Assembly: GCF_002288005.1 (NCBI RefSeq)
Contig: NZ_CP016771.1
Span: 806,001 to 870,000, forward strand
DNA length: 64,000 bases
Reading direction: 5' to 3'
Source: Candidatus Nanopelagicus hibericus
Lineage (GTDB): Bacteria; Actinomycetota; Actinomycetes; Nanopelagicales; Nanopelagicaceae
Part shown: in pieces, positions 14,199-56,646 of the stretch
Layout: each line of letters opens with the position of its first letter
Position numbering within the stretch: position 1 is the stretch's first letter
Position numbers and translations under genes: made by a program
Notes under the pieces: generated by a model
Told to the model about the DNA's origin: nothing
The model's database searches: none
What the model saw: only the letters and a program-made list of their open reading frames with translations

Positions 14199-14241
14199 GG
14201 GTCATCTCCATTTCTCAACACTTTATATCTAGAGAATGGAT

Positions 14242-14279
14242 CTTCGATCGAAGTTGCCGGAAAATCATTTTTCGGCAAC
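14242..14279 (-). promoter_or_regulatory. rpsO–pnp intercistronic hairpin and palindrome
   Basis: A stem of 12 pairs (GTTGCCGGAAAA against TTTTTCGGCAAC, one G-T pair, three-base loop) occupies 14253-14279. Overlapping its base is a perfect 12-base palindrome CTTCGATCGAAG at 14242-14253. No T-run follows, so it is a processing or autoregulatory structure rather than a terminator. In E. coli an RNase III hairpin in the equivalent place mediates PNPase autoregulation; the same role here is inferred from position. Confidence 0.5.
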
Positions 14280-14330
14280 CACTACCGAGGACCAAAACTC
14301 TTAGTGATAAAGTTTTTTGCTGATTGTTAT

Positions 14331-46077: not shown

Positions 46078-47667
46078 TTACTCGGGTTTTCGTCCCTGCC
46101 TTAGTAAGCCATAGGTAACCGCGTCATCTAATGCCATTGCTGAGGCTGCAATCACATTTTCATGCACGCCTACTGTGCTCCACTCGCCATTGCCATCACT
46201 GGTCTCAACTAAAACTCTAGTCACCGCACCAGTTCCTAAACGACCTTCCAAAATACGCACCTTGTAATCAGTTAGCTCAAGTTTTGATAACTCTGGATAA
46301 AAACTTTCTAATCCAGATCTTAAAGCGTTATCGATAGCATTAACTGGGCCATTTCCCACACCATTTGCAGAGATGCTTTCACCCTTTGCTTTAATTTTAA
46401 CTGTTGCCTTACTTGTTACTTTTCCAGATTCATCCTGATGAACCGTGGTTTGCCAATCTTCAATGGTAAAAAAGCTTGGCCGCTTGCCCAAAACCTCAGT
46501 ACGAAGCAGTAATTCAAAGGAGGCATCAGCTGCTTCAAAGGTAAAGCCTTTTCCTTCAAGCTCTTTAACCTTTTCAACTACTCTGGCAATTAAATTCTTA
46601 TCCCCACCCAAATCAATGCCAAGCTCTACTGATTTCAATTCAATTGAAGCACGACCAGCCATCTCAGAAACCAACATTCGCATGTCATTGCCTACTGATT
46701 CTGGTGTTTCATGTTGATACATCATGGGATCAACTTTTATTGCGGAGGCATGTAATCCTGCTTTGTGCGCAAAGGCTGAGGTTCCAACATATGGCTGACG
46801 GGCACTTGGCGCCACATTTGTAATCTCAGCGACTGCATGTGAAATACGAAATGCCTCTTGCAATTTGCCATTAGGTAAGACAGTTTTGTTCTTTTTTAGC
46901 TCAAGATTTGCAATGATATTTACCAAATCAGCGTTACCTGTTCGCTCACCATATCCATTCAATGTTCCCTGCACATGGGTTACGCCAGCAGAAATTGCCG
47001 CTAATGAATTTGCAACTGCGCAGCCAGTGTCATTATGACAATGAATTCCCAGCCGTGCCTTCGACATCGTTAATACTTCATGCACAATATTTGATAACTC
47101 ATCTGGCAACATGCCACCATTTGTGTCACAGAGCGCAACTACATCAGCACCGGCCTCCGCCGCCACTCTTACCACCTCAAGAGCGTAAGCTTTATTTGAA
47201 ATATAACCATCAAAGAAGTGCTCAGCATCTAAGAAAACTCGTTGTCCACCAGATTTTAAAAATTTAATTGAATCAGCGATCATTGCTAAGTTTTCATCTA
47301 ATTGAGTCTTTAATGCCAGGTCAACATGGCGATCATGGCTTTTTGCCACCAGTGTGACAGCTGCTGCTTTTGAATCAACCAAGGCTCTGAGCAGTAGATC
47401 ATCGGCAGCTTTAACACCAGGGCGCCTTGTCGCACCAAATGCAACAAAGGTGGCATTTTTCAGTTTCAACTCAGTTTGCGCTAGTTTAAAAAATTCAGTG
47501 TCTTTAGGATTCGCTCCTGGCCAGCCACCTTCAATAAAACCAACACCTAAGTCATCTAAGTGTCTGGCAATAGTTAATTTGTCATGAACTGAAAGATTTA
47601 AACCCTCTTGTTGGGCGCCGTCACGAAGTGTGGTGTCATAAATATGAAATGAATCATTAATTGGCAT
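46078..47667 (-). CDS. cimA: (R)-citramalate synthase
   Basis: A 529-residue HMGL-like enzyme that joins pyruvate and acetyl-CoA to citramalate, giving 2-oxobutanoate for isoleucine without threonine dehydratase. The N-terminus has YDTTLRDGAQQEGLNLSVHDK and FIEGGWPGANPKDTEFF, the CimA rather than LeuA wording; the HxH metal motif is GIHCHNDTGCAVANSLAA. A LeuA-type allosteric domain follows from about residue 400. It is translationally joined to ilvE (shared base) as the distal gene of the branched-chain operon. Confidence 0.92.
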   Translation of the reverse strand: MPINDSFHIYDTTLRDGAQQEGLNLSVHDKLTIARHLDDLGVGFIEGGWPGANPKDTEFFKLAQTELKLKNATFVAFGATRRPGVKAADDLLLRALVDSKAAAVTLVAKSHDRHVDLALKTQLDENLAMIADSIKFLKSGGQRVFLDAEHFFDGYISNKAYALEVVRVAAEAGADVVALCDTNGGMLPDELSNIVHEVLTMSKARLGIHCHNDTGCAVANSLAAISAGVTHVQGTLNGYGERTGNADLVNIIANLELKKNKTVLPNGKLQEAFRISHAVAEITNVAPSARQPYVGTSAFAHKAGLHASAIKVDPMMYQHETPESVGNDMRMLVSEMAGRASIELKSVELGIDLGGDKNLIARVVEKVKELEGKGFTFEAADASFELLLRTEVLGKRPSFFTIEDWQTTVHQDESGKVTSKATVKIKAKGESISANGVGNGPVNAIDNALRSGLESFYPELSKLELTDYKVRILEGRLGTGAVTRVLVETSDGNGEWSTVGVHENVIAASAMALDDAVTYGLLRQGRKPE

Positions 47668-48752
47668 CAGATAACTCTTTTATTCCAGCCATGCTTATCT
47701 GCTGCTGTGCCATGTTGAATCGCTAGCAATGCTGCGCGTATCTCATTTGTGATAACACCTGGTTGACCATTACCAGTTTGCCAAGTGCCGTGAATGCTTT
47801 TTGCAGCACCTACTGCCGAGACAACTGCTGCTGTGCCGCAAGCAAAAATCTCTGTGATCTCACCTGATTTAACGCCATCGCGCCAATCATCAATTGAGAT
47901 CATCGCCTCTTCGGTTTTGTATCCAAGATCTGCTGCCAAAGTTAATATTGAATCTCGAGTGATGCCAGGAAGTAATGTGCCGGTTAATTTTGGTGTGATG
48001 ATTTTGGCGCTCTTTCCACTTCCCTTAATAAAGTAGAGATTCATGCCACCCATCTCCTCTACCCATTTTCGTTCAACTGCATCGATATAGGCAACTTGAT
48101 CACAACCCTCTTTAGCTGCTTGCTTTTGCGCGAGCAAAGACGCTGCATAATTTCCGCCACACTTTGCCTCACCGGTACCACCTAATGCTGCTCTCACATA
48201 CTCAGTTGAGATCCAAACTGTTACCGCTTTTGCAGCGTTGAAGTAAGCAGCCGCTGGAGTGGCAATTAAAATATAGGTCGCATGATTGGAAGGCCGTACT
48301 CCTAAACCAACCTCAGTTGCGATCATAAATGGGCGAAGGTATAGAGATTCACCAACCTTCTTTGGTACCCAACCAGCATCTGCTTTTACTAACTCTTCAA
48401 CAGTTTTTACAAAAAAATCAACTGGCATTTCAGGCAATGCAATACGAGCAGCTGATTTTGCAAACCGTTTTGCGTTTGCATCTGGCCTAAATAATGAAAC
48501 TCCACCATCTGGTTGTGAGTAAGCCTTCATTCCTTCAAATATTTCTTGACCATAATGAAAAACCATTGCCGCCGGATCTAATGTAATTGGACCATATGGT
48601 TGCAAATTTGCATCAGCCCAACCAGCTGTCTCACTCCACTCAGCTACCACCATATTGTCGGTGTAGTACTTACCAAAACCTGGCTCTGCTACTCGTTTGT
48701 CTCGTTCAACGGCTGAAACTGGATTTGAATTTGCATTACTAATTACCTTCAT
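47667..48752 (-). CDS. ilvE: Branched-chain amino acid aminotransferase
   Basis: A 361-residue fold-type IV PLP enzyme for the last step of valine, leucine and isoleucine synthesis. Typical sequence: [52 protein letters not shown] and [22 protein letters not shown]-type region, with [15 protein letters not shown] near the end. The ATG overlaps the leuB stop by four bases. Confidence 0.95.
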
Positions 48753-49782
48753 AGGACTCCAGCCACTAATGCGTCGCCAATTTCGGTGGTTGATCGCTTC
48801 TTCTCACCACGTGCAGCTAAGTCCTTAGCCACCGCAACCTCCACATCACTTGCCGCTTTCGCTTGCCCAAGATGATTTAACATCATAGCAATTGATAAAA
48901 CTGTTGCAGTTGGATCAGCTAAATTCTTGCCGGCAATATCTGGTGCTGAACCATGGACAGGCTCAAACATCGAGGGAAACTGTCCGGTTGGATTGATATT
49001 TCCACTTGCTGCTAAACCAATTCCCCCACAAATTGCTGCAGCAATATCAGTAATAATATCGCCAAATAAATTATCAGTTACCACTACATCAAATCGCTCT
49101 GGGTTGGTAACAAAGAACATTGATGCTGCATCTACATGTAGGTAATCAGTTGTAATTTGTGGGAAATCCTTAGCCACCTCATTAAACACTCGGGTCCAAA
49201 GTCCACCCGCTCTAGTCAATACATTGTTTTTATGAACCAGAGTAAGTTTTTTGCGGGGACGATTCATTGCTCGATTAAAAGCATCTCGAATCACCCGCTC
49301 CACACCCTTATAGGTATTTATTGATTCTTCAATTGCCAACTCTTTATTTGTTCCCTCATCTTTCAATGAGCCAGCACCAACATATAACCCCTCGGTCCCC
49401 TCTCTAACTACAATGAAATCAATTCCCTTGTTGTTTGTAATTGGGGATGTAACTCCTGGGAATAATTTTGCCGGCCTTAAATTAATGTAATGCTCAAATG
49501 CAAATCTCAGCTTTAGTAATAAGCCTCGCTCCAACACTCCACTTGGTACGGTGGGATCGCCAACTGCGCCTAACAAAATCACATCGGCTTTCGCTAACTC
49601 TGCCATAACCGAATCTGGCAAAGTTTCCTTAGTTTTATGCCAGTAGGCTGCGCCCAGTTCGTAATTTGTTTTTTTAAACTCTAAATCATATTTTTTAGCA
49701 ACGGTATCTAAAACCCGCAAGCCTTGAGTTACGACTTCAGGTCCGATTCCATCTCCTGGAATTGTTGCTAAGTTGTAGGTTT

Positions 49783-49786
<4 letters not shown>
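48749..49786 (-). CDS. leuB: 3-isopropylmalate dehydrogenase
   Basis: A 345-residue NAD-dependent decarboxylating dehydrogenase for leucine. Typical sequence: [19 protein letters not shown] at the N-terminus, [70 protein letters not shown], and [18 protein letters not shown]. leuA, leuC and leuD are not in the window. It could also act on the citramalate branch, as LeuB does in organisms using CimA. It overlaps serA by four bases. Confidence 0.93.
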
Positions 49787-52429
<2,643 letters not shown>

Positions 52430-52981
52430 TTAATTCTGGTAATCAGCAGTTGAGCTATTTGGATCTGACTCGTTAGCAGTTCCCATAGTGCTTAGCGTAC
52501 GGTCCGCCAGGGTGTGATCTCCCCGCTCTAGCGCCACTAAGCCTGATTGAACTAACTCACGAATTCCGCTTGGTTTTAAATCATTTAACAATGCTTCAAT
52601 CGCAGCAGAGCTTCCGACCGCTTCAATTGAAACGGTGGTGGCAGATTCATCTGCAATTACCGCTTGGTGCTTCTTAGCAATTTCTTTATTGGCAGGGGTG
52701 TTGGCAACCTTCACTAATAAAATCTCGCGCTTTAGGGAGTCAGAATCCTTCATTTCAGAGATGCCAATAACATTTACTAATTTAAATAATTGCGCACTTA
52801 CTTGATCAAGAGCGTGCCCTTCTAAGTTTAAAACAATAGTCATTCTAGAAACTGTTGGGTTTTCTGTTGGACCCACTGCAAGTGAATCAATGTTGTAGCC
52901 GCGACGAGAGAACAAAGATGCTACTCGCGCTAGAACACCAGGTGAGTTTTCTACCAAGACAGCCAATGTGTGAATTGCCAT
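52430..52981 (-). CDS. ilvN: Acetolactate synthase small (regulatory) subunit
   Basis: A 183-residue regulatory subunit that confers valine feedback control. The N-terminal ACT domain reads HTLAVLVENSPGVLARVASLFSRRGYNIDSL (shown here only in part: ENSPGVLARVASLFSRRGY), with TVSRMTIVL later. The C-terminal half matches the ALS_ss_C domain. Its ATG shares a base with the ilvB stop (TAATG). Confidence 0.95.
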   Translation of the reverse strand: MAIHTLAVLVENSPGVLARVASLFSRRGYNIDSLAVGPTENPTVSRMTIVLNLEGHALDQVSAQLFKLVNVIGISEMKDSDSLKREILLVKVANTPANKEIAKKHQAVIADESATTVSIEAVGSSAAIEALLNDLKPSGIRELVQSGLVALERGDHTLADRTLSTMGTANESDPNSSTADYQN

Positions 52982-54720
52982 TACAACTCCTGTGAATCCC
53001 AGACAGGTGCCATTGATCTGGCAACGGTAATATCATCATTAGATGTGCCAGCTGCCACCATTGGCCAAACCATCGCATCACGATGGACATTAAAATCAAC
53101 TACTACTGGGCGATCATTAATCGCCATAGCTGCCTCAATAGTCTTATCAACATCCTCTGGCTTCTCACATCGCATTCCAACACAACCCATCGCCTCTGCT
53201 AACAATTTGAAATCAGGAACTCGCTTTGAATGCAGATCAGTATTTGAGTAGCGCTCGTTATAAAACAGTGTTTGCCACTGGCGAACCATTCCTAATGATT
53301 CATTATTAATCACCGCTACCTTAATTGGAATATTATTTAACGCGCAGGTCACTAACTCTTGATTTGTCATTTGGAAGCAGCCATCACCATCTATTGCCCA
53401 CACAGTTGTGTCAGGTGCGCCAACCTTTGCACCCATTGCCGCTGGAACTGCGTACCCCATCGTGCCAAGACCACCTGAGTTAAGCCAGGTTCTTGGTTTC
53501 TCATAACCAATAAATTGTGAGGCCCACATCTGATGTTGACCAACACCGGCTGCAAAGATTGTGTCAGGGCCTGAAATCTTGCCAATTCTTTCAATTACAT
53601 ATTGCGGTGAAACAGAACCATCTGCTGGTTTGTCATAGCCAAGTGGAAATTTTTTGCGCCACCCATAAACCTCATTAAGCCATGGAGTTAAATCGGGAGC
53701 AGATTTTGCTAGCGCTGCTTTGGTTGCTGGGTTTAGCACCTTTAATATGTTTTTCAAATCACCAATCAATGCCACATCAGCATGACGATTTTTACCAATC
53801 TCGGCTGGATCAATATCAGCATGAATTATCTTGGCATTTGGTGCAAAGGTTGAGAGCTTGCCAGTAACTCGATCATCAAATCTTGCGCCTAAAGTTATTA
53901 GCAGGTCTGCTTTTTGTAGCGCAGTTACAGCAGCAACTGTGCCATGCATACCAGGCATTCCAAGATGTTGGTTATGAGAGTCTGGGAAAGCACCTCTTGC
54001 CATCAAGGTAGTAACTACTGGTGCGCCAGTTATTTCAGCAAGCTGCATCAACTCTCGTGCGGCATTTGCCTTAATTACACCGCCACCAACATAAAGCAGA
54101 GGTTTCTTGGATTGAGCAATCAGCGCAGCTGCATCTCTGACCGCTTCACTTTTTGGCTCCAACACTGGGTTATAGCCTGCAAGTGAAACAGTTTTTGGGT
54201 AATTAAAAGTCGTCTCCTTTTGAAGTGCATCCTTGGCAATATCAACTAATACCGGACCAGGTCTGCCGGTGCTGGCAATATAAAAAGCTTCTGCAATCGC
54301 CTGTGGAATATCATCCGGATTTGTTATTAAATAATTGTGCTTAGTTATTGGCATGGTTACACCACGAATATCTGCCTCTTGAAACGCATCGGTACCAATC
54401 GCTGCTGAAGGTACTTGTCCAGTAATTGCCACCATTGGAACTGAATCCATCTGGGCATCAGCAAGTGGGGTTACTAAATTTGTTGCGCCCGGACCTGAGG
54501 TTGCAATACAAACACCAACTCGCCCAGTAGCTTGGGCATAACCAGTTGCTGCATGTCCCGCGCCTTGTTCATGCCTTACTAAAATATGTCGAATCTTAGA
54601 ATCAAAAATTGGATCGTAGGCAGGAAGAATTGCGCCCCCTGGGATGCCAAACATGACATCAACACCAGCGGCTTCAAGTGCGTTAACTAAGCTTTGCGCA
54701 CCGTTCATCTTGCCCATCAT
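52981..54720 (-). CDS. ilvB: Acetolactate synthase large (catalytic) subunit
   Basis: A 579-residue ThDP enzyme, first common step of branched-chain synthesis. The catalytic Glu is in [21 protein letters not shown] region GMHGTVAAV and [12 protein letters not shown]; ThDP motif [15 protein letters not shown] to VINN near residue 430. AAGGAAGG precedes two consecutive ATG codons (54720 and 54717). Upstream, a leader peptide and intrinsic terminator control entry into the ilvBNC–serA–leuB–ilvE–cimA operon. Confidence 0.97.
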
Positions 54721-54743
54721 TTCCTTCCTTTATTGCTCCCGTA

Positions 54744-54773
54744 ATACAAAACCCCCCAGTTTTATCTGAGGGG
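54744..54773 (-). terminator. Attenuator terminator of the ilvB leader
   Basis: On the minus strand CCCCTCAG pairs with CTGGGGGG (eight pairs, one T-G) around an A-rich loop and is followed by TTTTG. It lies between the leader peptide and the ilvB ribosome-binding site, the position expected of a transcription attenuator. Confidence 0.85.
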
Positions 54774-54803
54774 TGCGAACTAACTATTGCTGTTAGCGCG
54801 CAC
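54773..54803 (-). promoter_or_regulatory. ilvB leader hairpin containing the leader-peptide stop codon
   Basis: GTGCGCGCTAAC pairs with GTTAGTTCGCAC around a seven-base loop (ten of twelve positions pair). The leader peptide's last codons and TAA stop form its first arm. A ribosome stalled at the Val/Ile codons just upstream would mask that arm. It abuts the terminator stem by one shared base. I did not identify a convincing alternative antiterminator pairing. Confidence 0.65.
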
Positions 54804-54867
54804 GCTCGATAATCACTACGACCACTGATGTGATCGAAAGTTGTGAGATTAGCGATGTCTTCTTCAT
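54793..54867 (-). CDS. ilvB leader peptide, Val/Ile-rich
   Basis: A 24-residue ORF with ATG at 54867. It begins MKKTSLISQL and ends SVVVVIIERAR, so four consecutive valine and two isoleucine codons come just before the stop. Two leucine and two further isoleucine codons come earlier. The stop codon lies in a hairpin that is followed by an intrinsic terminator and then ilvB. This is the layout of ribosome-mediated attenuation sensing charged Val- and Ile-tRNA, as known for ilvB in Corynebacterium and other bacteria. GAAACT six bases before the ATG and no Shine-Dalgarno suggest a leaderless start. Confidence 0.85.
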   Translation of the reverse strand: MKKTSLISQLSITSVVVVIIERAR

Positions 54868-54873
54868 AGGCGT

Positions 54874-54903
54874 AGTTTCGCAGGTCAGATATCAGGTAGT
54901 CAA
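54874..54903 (-). promoter_or_regulatory. Candidate promoter of the ilvB leader
   Basis: Minus-strand TTGACT (54898-54903), an 18-base spacer, and GAAACT (54874-54879), then six bases and the leader-peptide ATG. The -35 matches five of six consensus positions; the -10 is weak. Confidence 0.5.
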
Positions 54904-54907
54904 ACCC

Positions 54908-54923
54908 TGAGATAGTGATCTCA
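54908..54923. promoter_or_regulatory. Inverted repeat beside the ilvB promoter
   Basis: TGAGAT, four bases, ATCTCA: a perfect six-base-arm repeat five bases upstream of the -35-like TTGACT. It could be an operator for a regulator such as an Lrp- or GntR-type protein; no T-run makes it a terminator for ilvD. Confidence 0.4.
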
Positions 54924-54954
54924 TTATTTGAGCGTGCTTATAACAAAAGTGCAA

Positions 54955-56646
54955 TTAATCGCAGACCGCACCCTTTGAAGCACTGCCCACTAGTTTTGAA
55001 TATTTCGCTAATACACCACGACGGTACTTATGTGGAATTGGCTTAAAGCTTTTCTTTCGCTCATTCATCTCTTTTTCATCAACTACTAAATCTAAAGTAC
55101 GTTTTTTAATGTCAACTCTGATCAGATCACCATTTTTGATAAATGCTATTGGTCCTGCATCAACCGCCTCTGGTGCAACATGGCCAACACATAATCCAGT
55201 AGATCCTCCTGAGAACCGCCCATCTGTTAATAGCAAGACAGATTTACCAAGACCTGCCCCCTTAATGGCGCCAGTAATCATCAACATCTCTCGCATACCA
55301 GGACCACCTTTTGGTCCTTCGTATCGAATTACTACAACATCTCCTGCCACAATCGCACCACTTTCTAATGCATCCATCGCAGATTGCTCACGCTCGAAAA
55401 CCTTTGCTGGACCCTCAAAAAATTCAACATCTATTCCCGCTGTTTTACAAACTGCACCCTCTGTCGCCAACGACCCATGAAGGATTGTTATCCCACCACC
55501 CAAAGCAAGTGGATTTTTCACCGCTTTTAATATTTCACCATCAGCATCAGGTGGTTTAATATTCTTTAAGTTCTCCGCCATACTTTGTCCAGTAACAGTC
55601 AAACAATCTCCATGTAGTAGACCTGCATCTAGCAGCGCCCGAAGAATCACTGGAATTCCACCAACTTTATCGAAATCAGTCATTACATACTTTCCAAATG
55701 GTTTTAAGTCACCAAGTAATGGCACCTTAGAACCAACTCTGTGAAAATCTTCAAGTGTTAAATCAACCTCTGCTTCATGAGCAATTGCAAGCAAGTGAAG
55801 TACGGCGTTAGTTGATCCACCTAGTGCCATAACAACTGTGATTGCATTTTCAAAAGCTTTTTTGGTAAGAATCTGCCTGGTGGTAATTCCCTTGCGAATT
55901 AACTCCACAACCGCAGCTCCTGATTTAACTGCGTAATCATCACGGCGGCGATCAATAGAGGGAGGGGATGCTGAACCAGGCAGTGATAAACCAATTGCCT
56001 CACCTACTGCCGCCATCGTGTTAGCGGTGTACATACCACCACATGCACCTTCACCTGGGCAAATAGCCCTTTCAATTTTATCAACCTCCTCCTGCGAGAT
56101 TAATCCGCGAGCGCAAGCACCAACCGCCTCAAATGCATCAATGATTGTGACATCTCTGCCATCTATCTTTCCTGGCATGGTGGAACCTGCATAAACAAAA
56201 ACACTTGCCACATCCATCCGTGCTGCTGCCATCATCATCGCTGGCAAAGATTTATCACAACCAGCAAAGGTGACCATGCCATCGAATCGCTCTGCCTGCA
56301 TCACAGTCTCAACTGAATCAGCGATTACCTCTCTTGATACCAGAGAAAAATGCATTCCTTCATGTCCCATAGAAATTCCATCAGAGACTGAGATCGTGCC
56401 AAATTGCATTGGAAATCCACCAGCATCAATTACGCCCTTCTTTGATGCTTTGGCTAATCTATCTAGGGATAAATTACAGGGTGTAATTTCATTCCAAGAG
56501 GATGCAATACCAATCTGTGGCTTAGCAAAATCCTCATCCTTCATACCAACAGCACGCAACATTCCTCGTGCCGGAGCTCGCTCCATACCATCTGTAACTA
56601 AGCCAGATCGTGGCTTCATTTTATTTGGTAGATTTTTTTCGCTCAT
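54955..56646 (-). CDS. ilvD: Dihydroxy-acid dehydratase
   Basis: A 563-residue iron-sulfur dehydratase, third step of valine and isoleucine synthesis. Signatures are [20 protein letters not shown] near residue 46, [34 protein letters not shown], and [19 protein letters not shown]. The three cluster cysteines are in those motifs. It lies between gatB and ilvB. TAAACT stands exactly six bases before the ATG, overlapping the gatB stop, so it has a likely promoter of its own. Confidence 0.96.

Follow-up and report, generated by a model that had tools for sequence, protein, structure and literature searches.

Control of ilvB by attenuation was predicted for Actinobacteria in 2005 (PMC1262725), and attenuation through a leader peptide has been shown experimentally in Corynebacterium glutamicum (PMC11857589) and Mycobacterium tuberculosis (PMC13236596). 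Upstream of ilvB-ilvN-ilvC, the M. tuberculosis ilvB1 leader has a short open reading frame (ORF) rich in codons for branched-chain amino acids, followed by an intrinsic terminator, and in the proposed model the antiterminator is masked when the ribosome occupies the stop codon; a short terminated RNA is seen, and changing the control codons from LVVI to AAAA abolishes induction (PMC13236596). In the ilvBNC operon of C. glutamicum, replacement of leader Val by Ala abolishes valine-dependent expression, and mutations in the terminator raise ilvBNC expression (PMC11857589). The antiterminator there overlaps the terminator by only three bases at the boundary, which was explained by rapid switching (PMC11857589), and the leader start lies one nucleotide from the transcription start (ilvB-II motif; PMC11857589, PMC10272879). 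Morbach et al. 2000 name leader translation without a ribosome-binding site in their title. Among streptomycetes, ilvL of S. lividans (PMC8079986) and the ilvB leader of S. coelicolor encode the leaderless peptide MRTRILVLGKRVG and continue through hairpins and a U-rich terminator into ilvBHC. For S. coelicolor, substitution of the candidate control codons was reported to be without effect (PMC1262725).

The locus described here lies upstream of ilvB in Candidatus Nanopelagicus hibericus, within the whole 64,000-nucleotide stretch of DNA that was analyzed (the window), which comes from a genome of 1.22 Mb in a single contig. Directly upstream of ilvB, it carries a short ORF rich in Val/Ile/Leu codons, with an intrinsic terminator between this ORF and ilvB, and the membership of this putative attenuator in the already known actinobacterial ilvL type is well supported. 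The M. tuberculosis leader, which we liken to it by description, shares both features and the proposed action of the ribosome at the stop codon, but its control codons read LVVI versus VVVVII here and its leader is 166 nt long. The C. glutamicum leader, likewise compared by description, has the start position predicted here, Val/Ile/Leu codons, a terminator, and, like the proposed H2, an antiterminator overlapping the terminator by only a few bases; unlike the window leader, it encodes MTIIRLVVVTARRLP, and its modelled motif is restricted to Corynebacterium. The leaderless start predicted here, the hairpins, and the U-rich terminator are shared with S. lividans ilvL, whose leader, unlike that of the window, has one Val, one Ile, and two Leu codons. 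As in the trp and ilv attenuators of E. coli, the position of the ribosome on the leader ORF would decide the fate of the terminator. Exclusion between antiterminator and terminator is complete in E. coli, where the leader also carries a Shine-Dalgarno site; in the window, the leader appears to be leaderless and the exclusion partial.

Organization of the ilvB leader region

All features of the module lie on the minus strand, and coordinates are window positions. The elements run from the ilvD stop (54955), the upstream neighbor, through a promoter, a 24-codon leader ORF, a hairpin around its stop codon, and an intrinsic terminator to ilvB. A palindrome, TGAGATcactATCTCA (54908..54923), a candidate operator matching its consensus at 12 of 12 positions, lies 4 bp 5' of the -35 hexamer TTGACT (54898..54903), and a spacer of 18 nt separates this hexamer from the -10 element GAAACT (54874..54879; family consensus GAnAAT). 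Six bases lie between GAAACT and the ATG (54867-54865) of the leader peptide ORF (MKKTSLISQLSITSVVVVIIERAR plus TAA; 54793..54867), in which the control codons GTG GTC GTA GTG ATT ATC (Val4 Ile2) occupy 54808..54825. The TAA (54795-54793) sits within the 5' side of a hairpin, H2, whose core (54773..54803) is the proposed antiterminator core. The terminator stem-loop, ACCCCTCAG-ataaaa-CTGGGGGGT (54751..54774), is the only terminator found in a scan of 54600-55050 and ends in the T-rich tail TTTGTATT (54743..54750). The ribosome-binding site AGGAAGGA precedes the ATG of ilvB (52981..54720; acetolactate synthase large subunit; NCBIfam NF005860, 1070.9 bits), the first operon gene, which starts at the ATG at 54720 or possibly at a second one at 54717.

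An initial annotation, made from the letters of the window, had named the two promoter-like hexamers, the 24-codon leader with Val4-Ile2 near its end, the hairpin enclosing the stop codon, the terminator, and the ilvB ribosome-binding site 3' of it. Direct reading agrees on the hexamers and the leader, and the hexamers recur in 125 relatives. The hairpin is borne out by sequence, folds, and covariation, the terminator by the scan and its retention in the same 125 relatives, and the ribosome-binding site by sequence. The palindrome was absent from that description, as were the contact between H2 and the terminator and the separate switch that cimA appears to have elsewhere in the class.

Conservation of the promoter and the leader

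When 151 genomes of the family were queried with IlvB, 147 matched; 130 ilvB upstream regions were taken, of which 125 were parsed automatically. Two others come from contigs that end too early (L019, L027) and three escaped the pattern (L050, L056, L115), although in L056 and L115 a leader is visible by eye. An in-frame leader, a hairpin, and a terminator are retained in all 125 parsed relatives.

The distance from TTGAC to the leader start codon (ATG in 120, GTG in 5) is 35–37 nt in every parsed relative, which would place the transcription start on the start codon. Relative to that codon, the -10 region has T at -7 in 124/125 and A at -11 in 108/125. A generic promoter scan of the region missed the ilvB promoter, since GAAACT scores poorly as a -10 under the E. 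coli rule; the predicted promoter is supported by conservation and not by consensus score. By promoter geometry in 125 genomes, the leader ORF is predicted to be leaderless. The initial annotation had called this start notable, yet it is ordinary for the type, being published for ilvB of C. glutamicum and S. lividans.

Leaders range from 8 to 30 residues with a free N-terminus, and Val, Ile, and Leu account for 43% of leader residues versus about 23% in the operon's own proteins. Runs of at least three Val/Ile/Leu occur in 122 of the 125. We also looked for relatives keeping neither the Val/Ile codons nor the terminator, a pattern that the initial annotation had held to speak against attenuation, and found adjacent Val/Ile codons in 122/125 and the terminator in 125/125. 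Among 13 distinct 24-codon leaders of the window's genus, codons 15–24 show 12 differences at position 1, 12 at position 2, and 64 at position 3. This third-position bias is as would be expected for coding sequence, with RNA structure constraining the same stretch.

Three relatives of one genus (L111, L121, L122) have the leader MLSRISVRLERAS, which lacks adjacent Val/Ile codons, and retain the promoter spacing, hairpin, and terminator; in them, the switch may be decaying or may respond to another signal. Codon choice is also uneven. GTT, the commonest Val codon in the operon genes (144/309), is avoided among the Val control codons of leaders L002–L131 (25/296, with GTG at 196/296). Both tRNA-Val UAC and tRNA-Val GAC are present among the tRNAs scanned in the genome, and the window leader, GTG GTC GTA GTG, draws on the codons of both tRNAs and lacks GTT. 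Selection for codons that are sensitive to starvation may explain this avoidance, or RNA pairing alone may.

A palindrome upstream of the -35

The sequence TGAGATN4ATCTCA stands exactly 4 bp before TTGAC in 101/125 relatives and occurs with at most two mismatches in 110/125, compared with 5/2500 shuffled regions. Its copy in the window is the sole exact site in the genome; across 80 relatives, the majority of exact copies lie at ilvB, and the half-site TGAGA[CT] is kept at a similar place in some loci outside the family. We regard it as a candidate operator for a DNA-binding regulator. The genome encodes an IclR-type regulator (L142), but NdgR/LtbR was rejected as the reader of the palindrome, whose sequence the published NdgR/LtbR motif, KTYCRSMWYSYGRRM (PMC8222616), does not fit. 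One genus has further sites where a coding sequence resembling a CCA-adding enzyme begins; these appear coincidental and were rejected as a second target.

Strong conservation, fixed spacing to the -35, and uniqueness in the genome, together with the weak -10 and the ineffective codon substitution in S. coelicolor (PMC1262725), could mean that a regulator bound at the palindrome exerts the main control, the leader and hairpins being real but the attenuator weak or vestigial. We consider this unlikely. The leader codons, stop position, and terminator are conserved equally to the palindrome, which is unlike a vestige, and the homologous switch is functional in M. tuberculosis (PMC13236596) and C. 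glutamicum (PMC11857589).

Geometry and covariation of the hairpins

H2 begins 11–23 nt past the first control codon in 115/122 relatives, so that a ribosome stalled on the control codons would leave it free. It also starts between -16 and +4 nt relative to the leader stop codon in 123/125, so a ribosome at the stop would cover the 5' arm of H2 and leave free the terminator, which starts at least 20 nt past the stop in 125/125. By these same two counts, the family has trp-type geometry: the 5' arm of the proposed antiterminator lies under a ribosome at the stop and outside a stalled one. An arrangement of this sign is what derepression upon starvation requires, and it matches the scheme published for M. 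tuberculosis ilvB1.

Covariation was scored in an alignment of 51 diverse sequences (A1), with 11 pairs in H2 and 7 in the terminator. Across both helices, 91.8% of cells are paired and 9 pairs show changes on both sides, 7 of them among the 11 pairs of H2; in the terminator, 98.6% of cells are paired. None of 500 shuffles reaches this level and slid controls are much lower; the slid control weighs more, since the shuffle keeps relatedness in. A covariance model across relatives (R1), the check proposed in the initial annotation, was built from the covarying hairpin and terminator, and it finds the module across the class. R1 recovers the module in 75 of 297 genomes of the class, and 20 matches outside the family were examined, of which 16 precede ilvB and the other 4 cimA. 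One match upstream of ilvB (L224; 32.4 bits, E 4.1e-4) encodes MRTRILVLGKRVG, identical letter for letter to the published leaderless S. lividans IlvL. Retention of the module in a streamlined genome, which had also been called notable, is ordinary given that the module is ancestral in the class.

Weaker R1 matches in the organism's own genome are ordinary terminators at the groEL and glnA ends. The weak score at groEL speaks for a simpler account, in which a plain terminator closes transcription of ilvD and the product of the ORF is a small protein that functions independently, and the terminator does lie downstream of ilvD. We judge this account very improbable: leader length (8–30) and N-terminus vary, whereas the Val/Ile run, the spacing from stop codon to terminator, and the fit to the promoter stay constant, and the promoter is located between ilvD and the hairpins.

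Folding of the leader RNA

The leader RNA folds at -43.1 kcal/mol versus a shuffled mean of -30.8 (z -3.7), with 0/200 shuffles as low. Folds for a stalled ribosome were computed on the RNA as it stands before the 3' arm of the terminator exists. With the ribosome at the first Val codon of the window leader, the minimum-energy fold of the exposed RNA (-20.2 kcal/mol) is an extended H2, the proposed extended antiterminator (54762..54812), in which GAG:CUC and UUAUC:GAUAA lengthen the hairpin into the 5' arm and loop of the terminator. For the window's genus, pairing of the terminator 5' arm is 0.66 in this state versus 0.03 with the ribosome at the stop. Averaged over 122 genomes of the family, sequestration of this arm is 0.295 versus 0.271 with a shuffled arm; as this average is not above its control, we rejected a family-wide antiterminator that reaches the 5' arm. 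No antiterminator was identified in the initial annotation. For the window's genus, one that excludes the terminator can be drawn, though not generally in the family, and it is only in this genus that the folds predict clear exclusion by pairing.

What holds throughout the family is proximity. H2 and the terminator abut within one base or overlap by up to 5 nt in 125/125, the overlaps being upper limits with the terminator taken at its longest. At equilibrium, the pairing probability of the terminator core is near 1 even with H2, only the outer pairs being weakened, and the two can coexist in most genomes. Any antitermination must therefore be kinetic or act at the junction. We infer that H2 would serve as the antiterminator.

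An Rfam search of the region returned no family at gathering score and no credible match at a relaxed E-value, and with the coding pattern within the leader and the lack of a ppGpp response when the Corynebacterium motif was tested (PMC10272879), it makes a metabolite- or tRNA-binding RNA acting with no translated leader (ppGpp riboswitch, T-box, or LEU element) scarcely credible, even though ppGpp riboswitches control ilvB in some Firmicutes (PMC10272879). Elsewhere in the window, an Actino-pnp RNA lies at 14236-14296 on the minus strand (66.5 bits, above gathering score).

Extent of the operon and the case of cimA

Downstream of ilvB, ORF coordinates and NCBIfam scores above cut-off place ilvN, ilvC, serA, leuB, ilvE, and cimA on the minus strand (46078..52981), and curated models confirm the assignments of these genes, of ilvB, and of ilvD upstream. 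By ORF coordinates, the operon genes overlap or lie at most about 25 bases apart, and terminator-like sites over the ilvN–cimA region, counted on both strands, are not beyond chance (12 versus 10.5 expected), so control by the attenuator of the whole operon through cimA is likely. Internal promoters, which C. glutamicum has (PMC11857589), may be present here too. A tie between serine synthesis and branched-chain supply would require a single transcript that includes serA. For other Actinobacteria, an ilvB-serA1 operon has already been listed (PMC1262725).

In the window, cimA overlaps ilvE, which leaves no room for a switch of its own, so it would fall under the ilvB attenuator, whose leader includes two Ile codons. 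Elsewhere in the class, cimA upstream regions of 40 genomes outside the family (L225–L264) have a detectable terminator in 34, and by inspection 33 of these 34 have a leader in which two or more Ile codons stand side by side. Such leaders end Ile-Ile(-Ile), for example MTYSLIIS, VAQTLIIE, and MSTITIICERVG. R1 itself matches upstream of cimA in L206, L209, L211, and L212. One cimA leader, MASTCITT (L235), has a single Ile and then two Thr codons in place of Ile-Ile. Citramalate synthase serves isoleucine only, and control codons thus appear to follow the pathway of the controlled gene, being Val-rich for ilvB and Ile-Ile for cimA. These sequences suggest that elsewhere in the class a separate Ile-Ile attenuator precedes cimA, one that is absent from the window, where cimA is fused into the ilvB operon. 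No description of a cimA attenuator turned up in the papers searched, a body of literature that takes in few subscription journals.

Discussion

Anatomy, conservation, geometry, covariation, and homology are the basis for reading this module as an attenuator. Ribosome-mediated attenuation by Val and Ile charging, as the initial annotation had proposed, is the best-supported reading given the conserved leader, the geometry, the covariation, and homology to proven actinobacterial attenuators, and we are highly confident that the module is a transcription attenuator of the actinobacterial ilvL type sensing Val/Ile charging. The codon substitutions reported as ineffective in S. coelicolor (PMC1262725) speak against carrying the proven cases over directly. 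From these observations, we infer the following course of events. Transcription would start on the leader ATG or no more than one base away, and the leader peptide would be translated with no Shine-Dalgarno site ahead of it. While the tRNAs for Val and Ile are charged, the ribosome would reach the stop codon and cover the 5' arm of H2; the downstream terminator would then fold and transcription would end before ilvB. With uncharged Val or Ile tRNA, the ribosome would stall in the VVVVII run and H2 would form, lengthened in the window's genus into the 5' arm of the terminator. H2, once formed, would prevent or delay the terminator, and polymerase would continue into ilvBNC-serA-leuB-ilvE-cimA.

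A broader reading for the whole class can be advanced more tentatively. Antitermination may depend on a hairpin that abuts the terminator, acting through the junction or by blocking terminator folding at the polymerase exit and not through fully exclusive pairing. Ancestral switches at ilvB (Val/Leu/Ile) and cimA (Ile only) may have merged here when cimA joined the ilvB operon, and an additional regulator may act at the palindrome. We see this combination as possible but less likely than not.

The comparison of 125 genomes provides a ready alignment and model for a switch missing from Rfam. It also makes two questions directly testable, namely how a hairpin that barely overlaps a terminator could prevent it, and which protein reads the conserved palindrome. 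For the organism itself, the attenuator reading would mean that a small-genome, freshwater-type bacterium retains sensitive, codon-based control of the largest of its operons for branched-chain amino acids.
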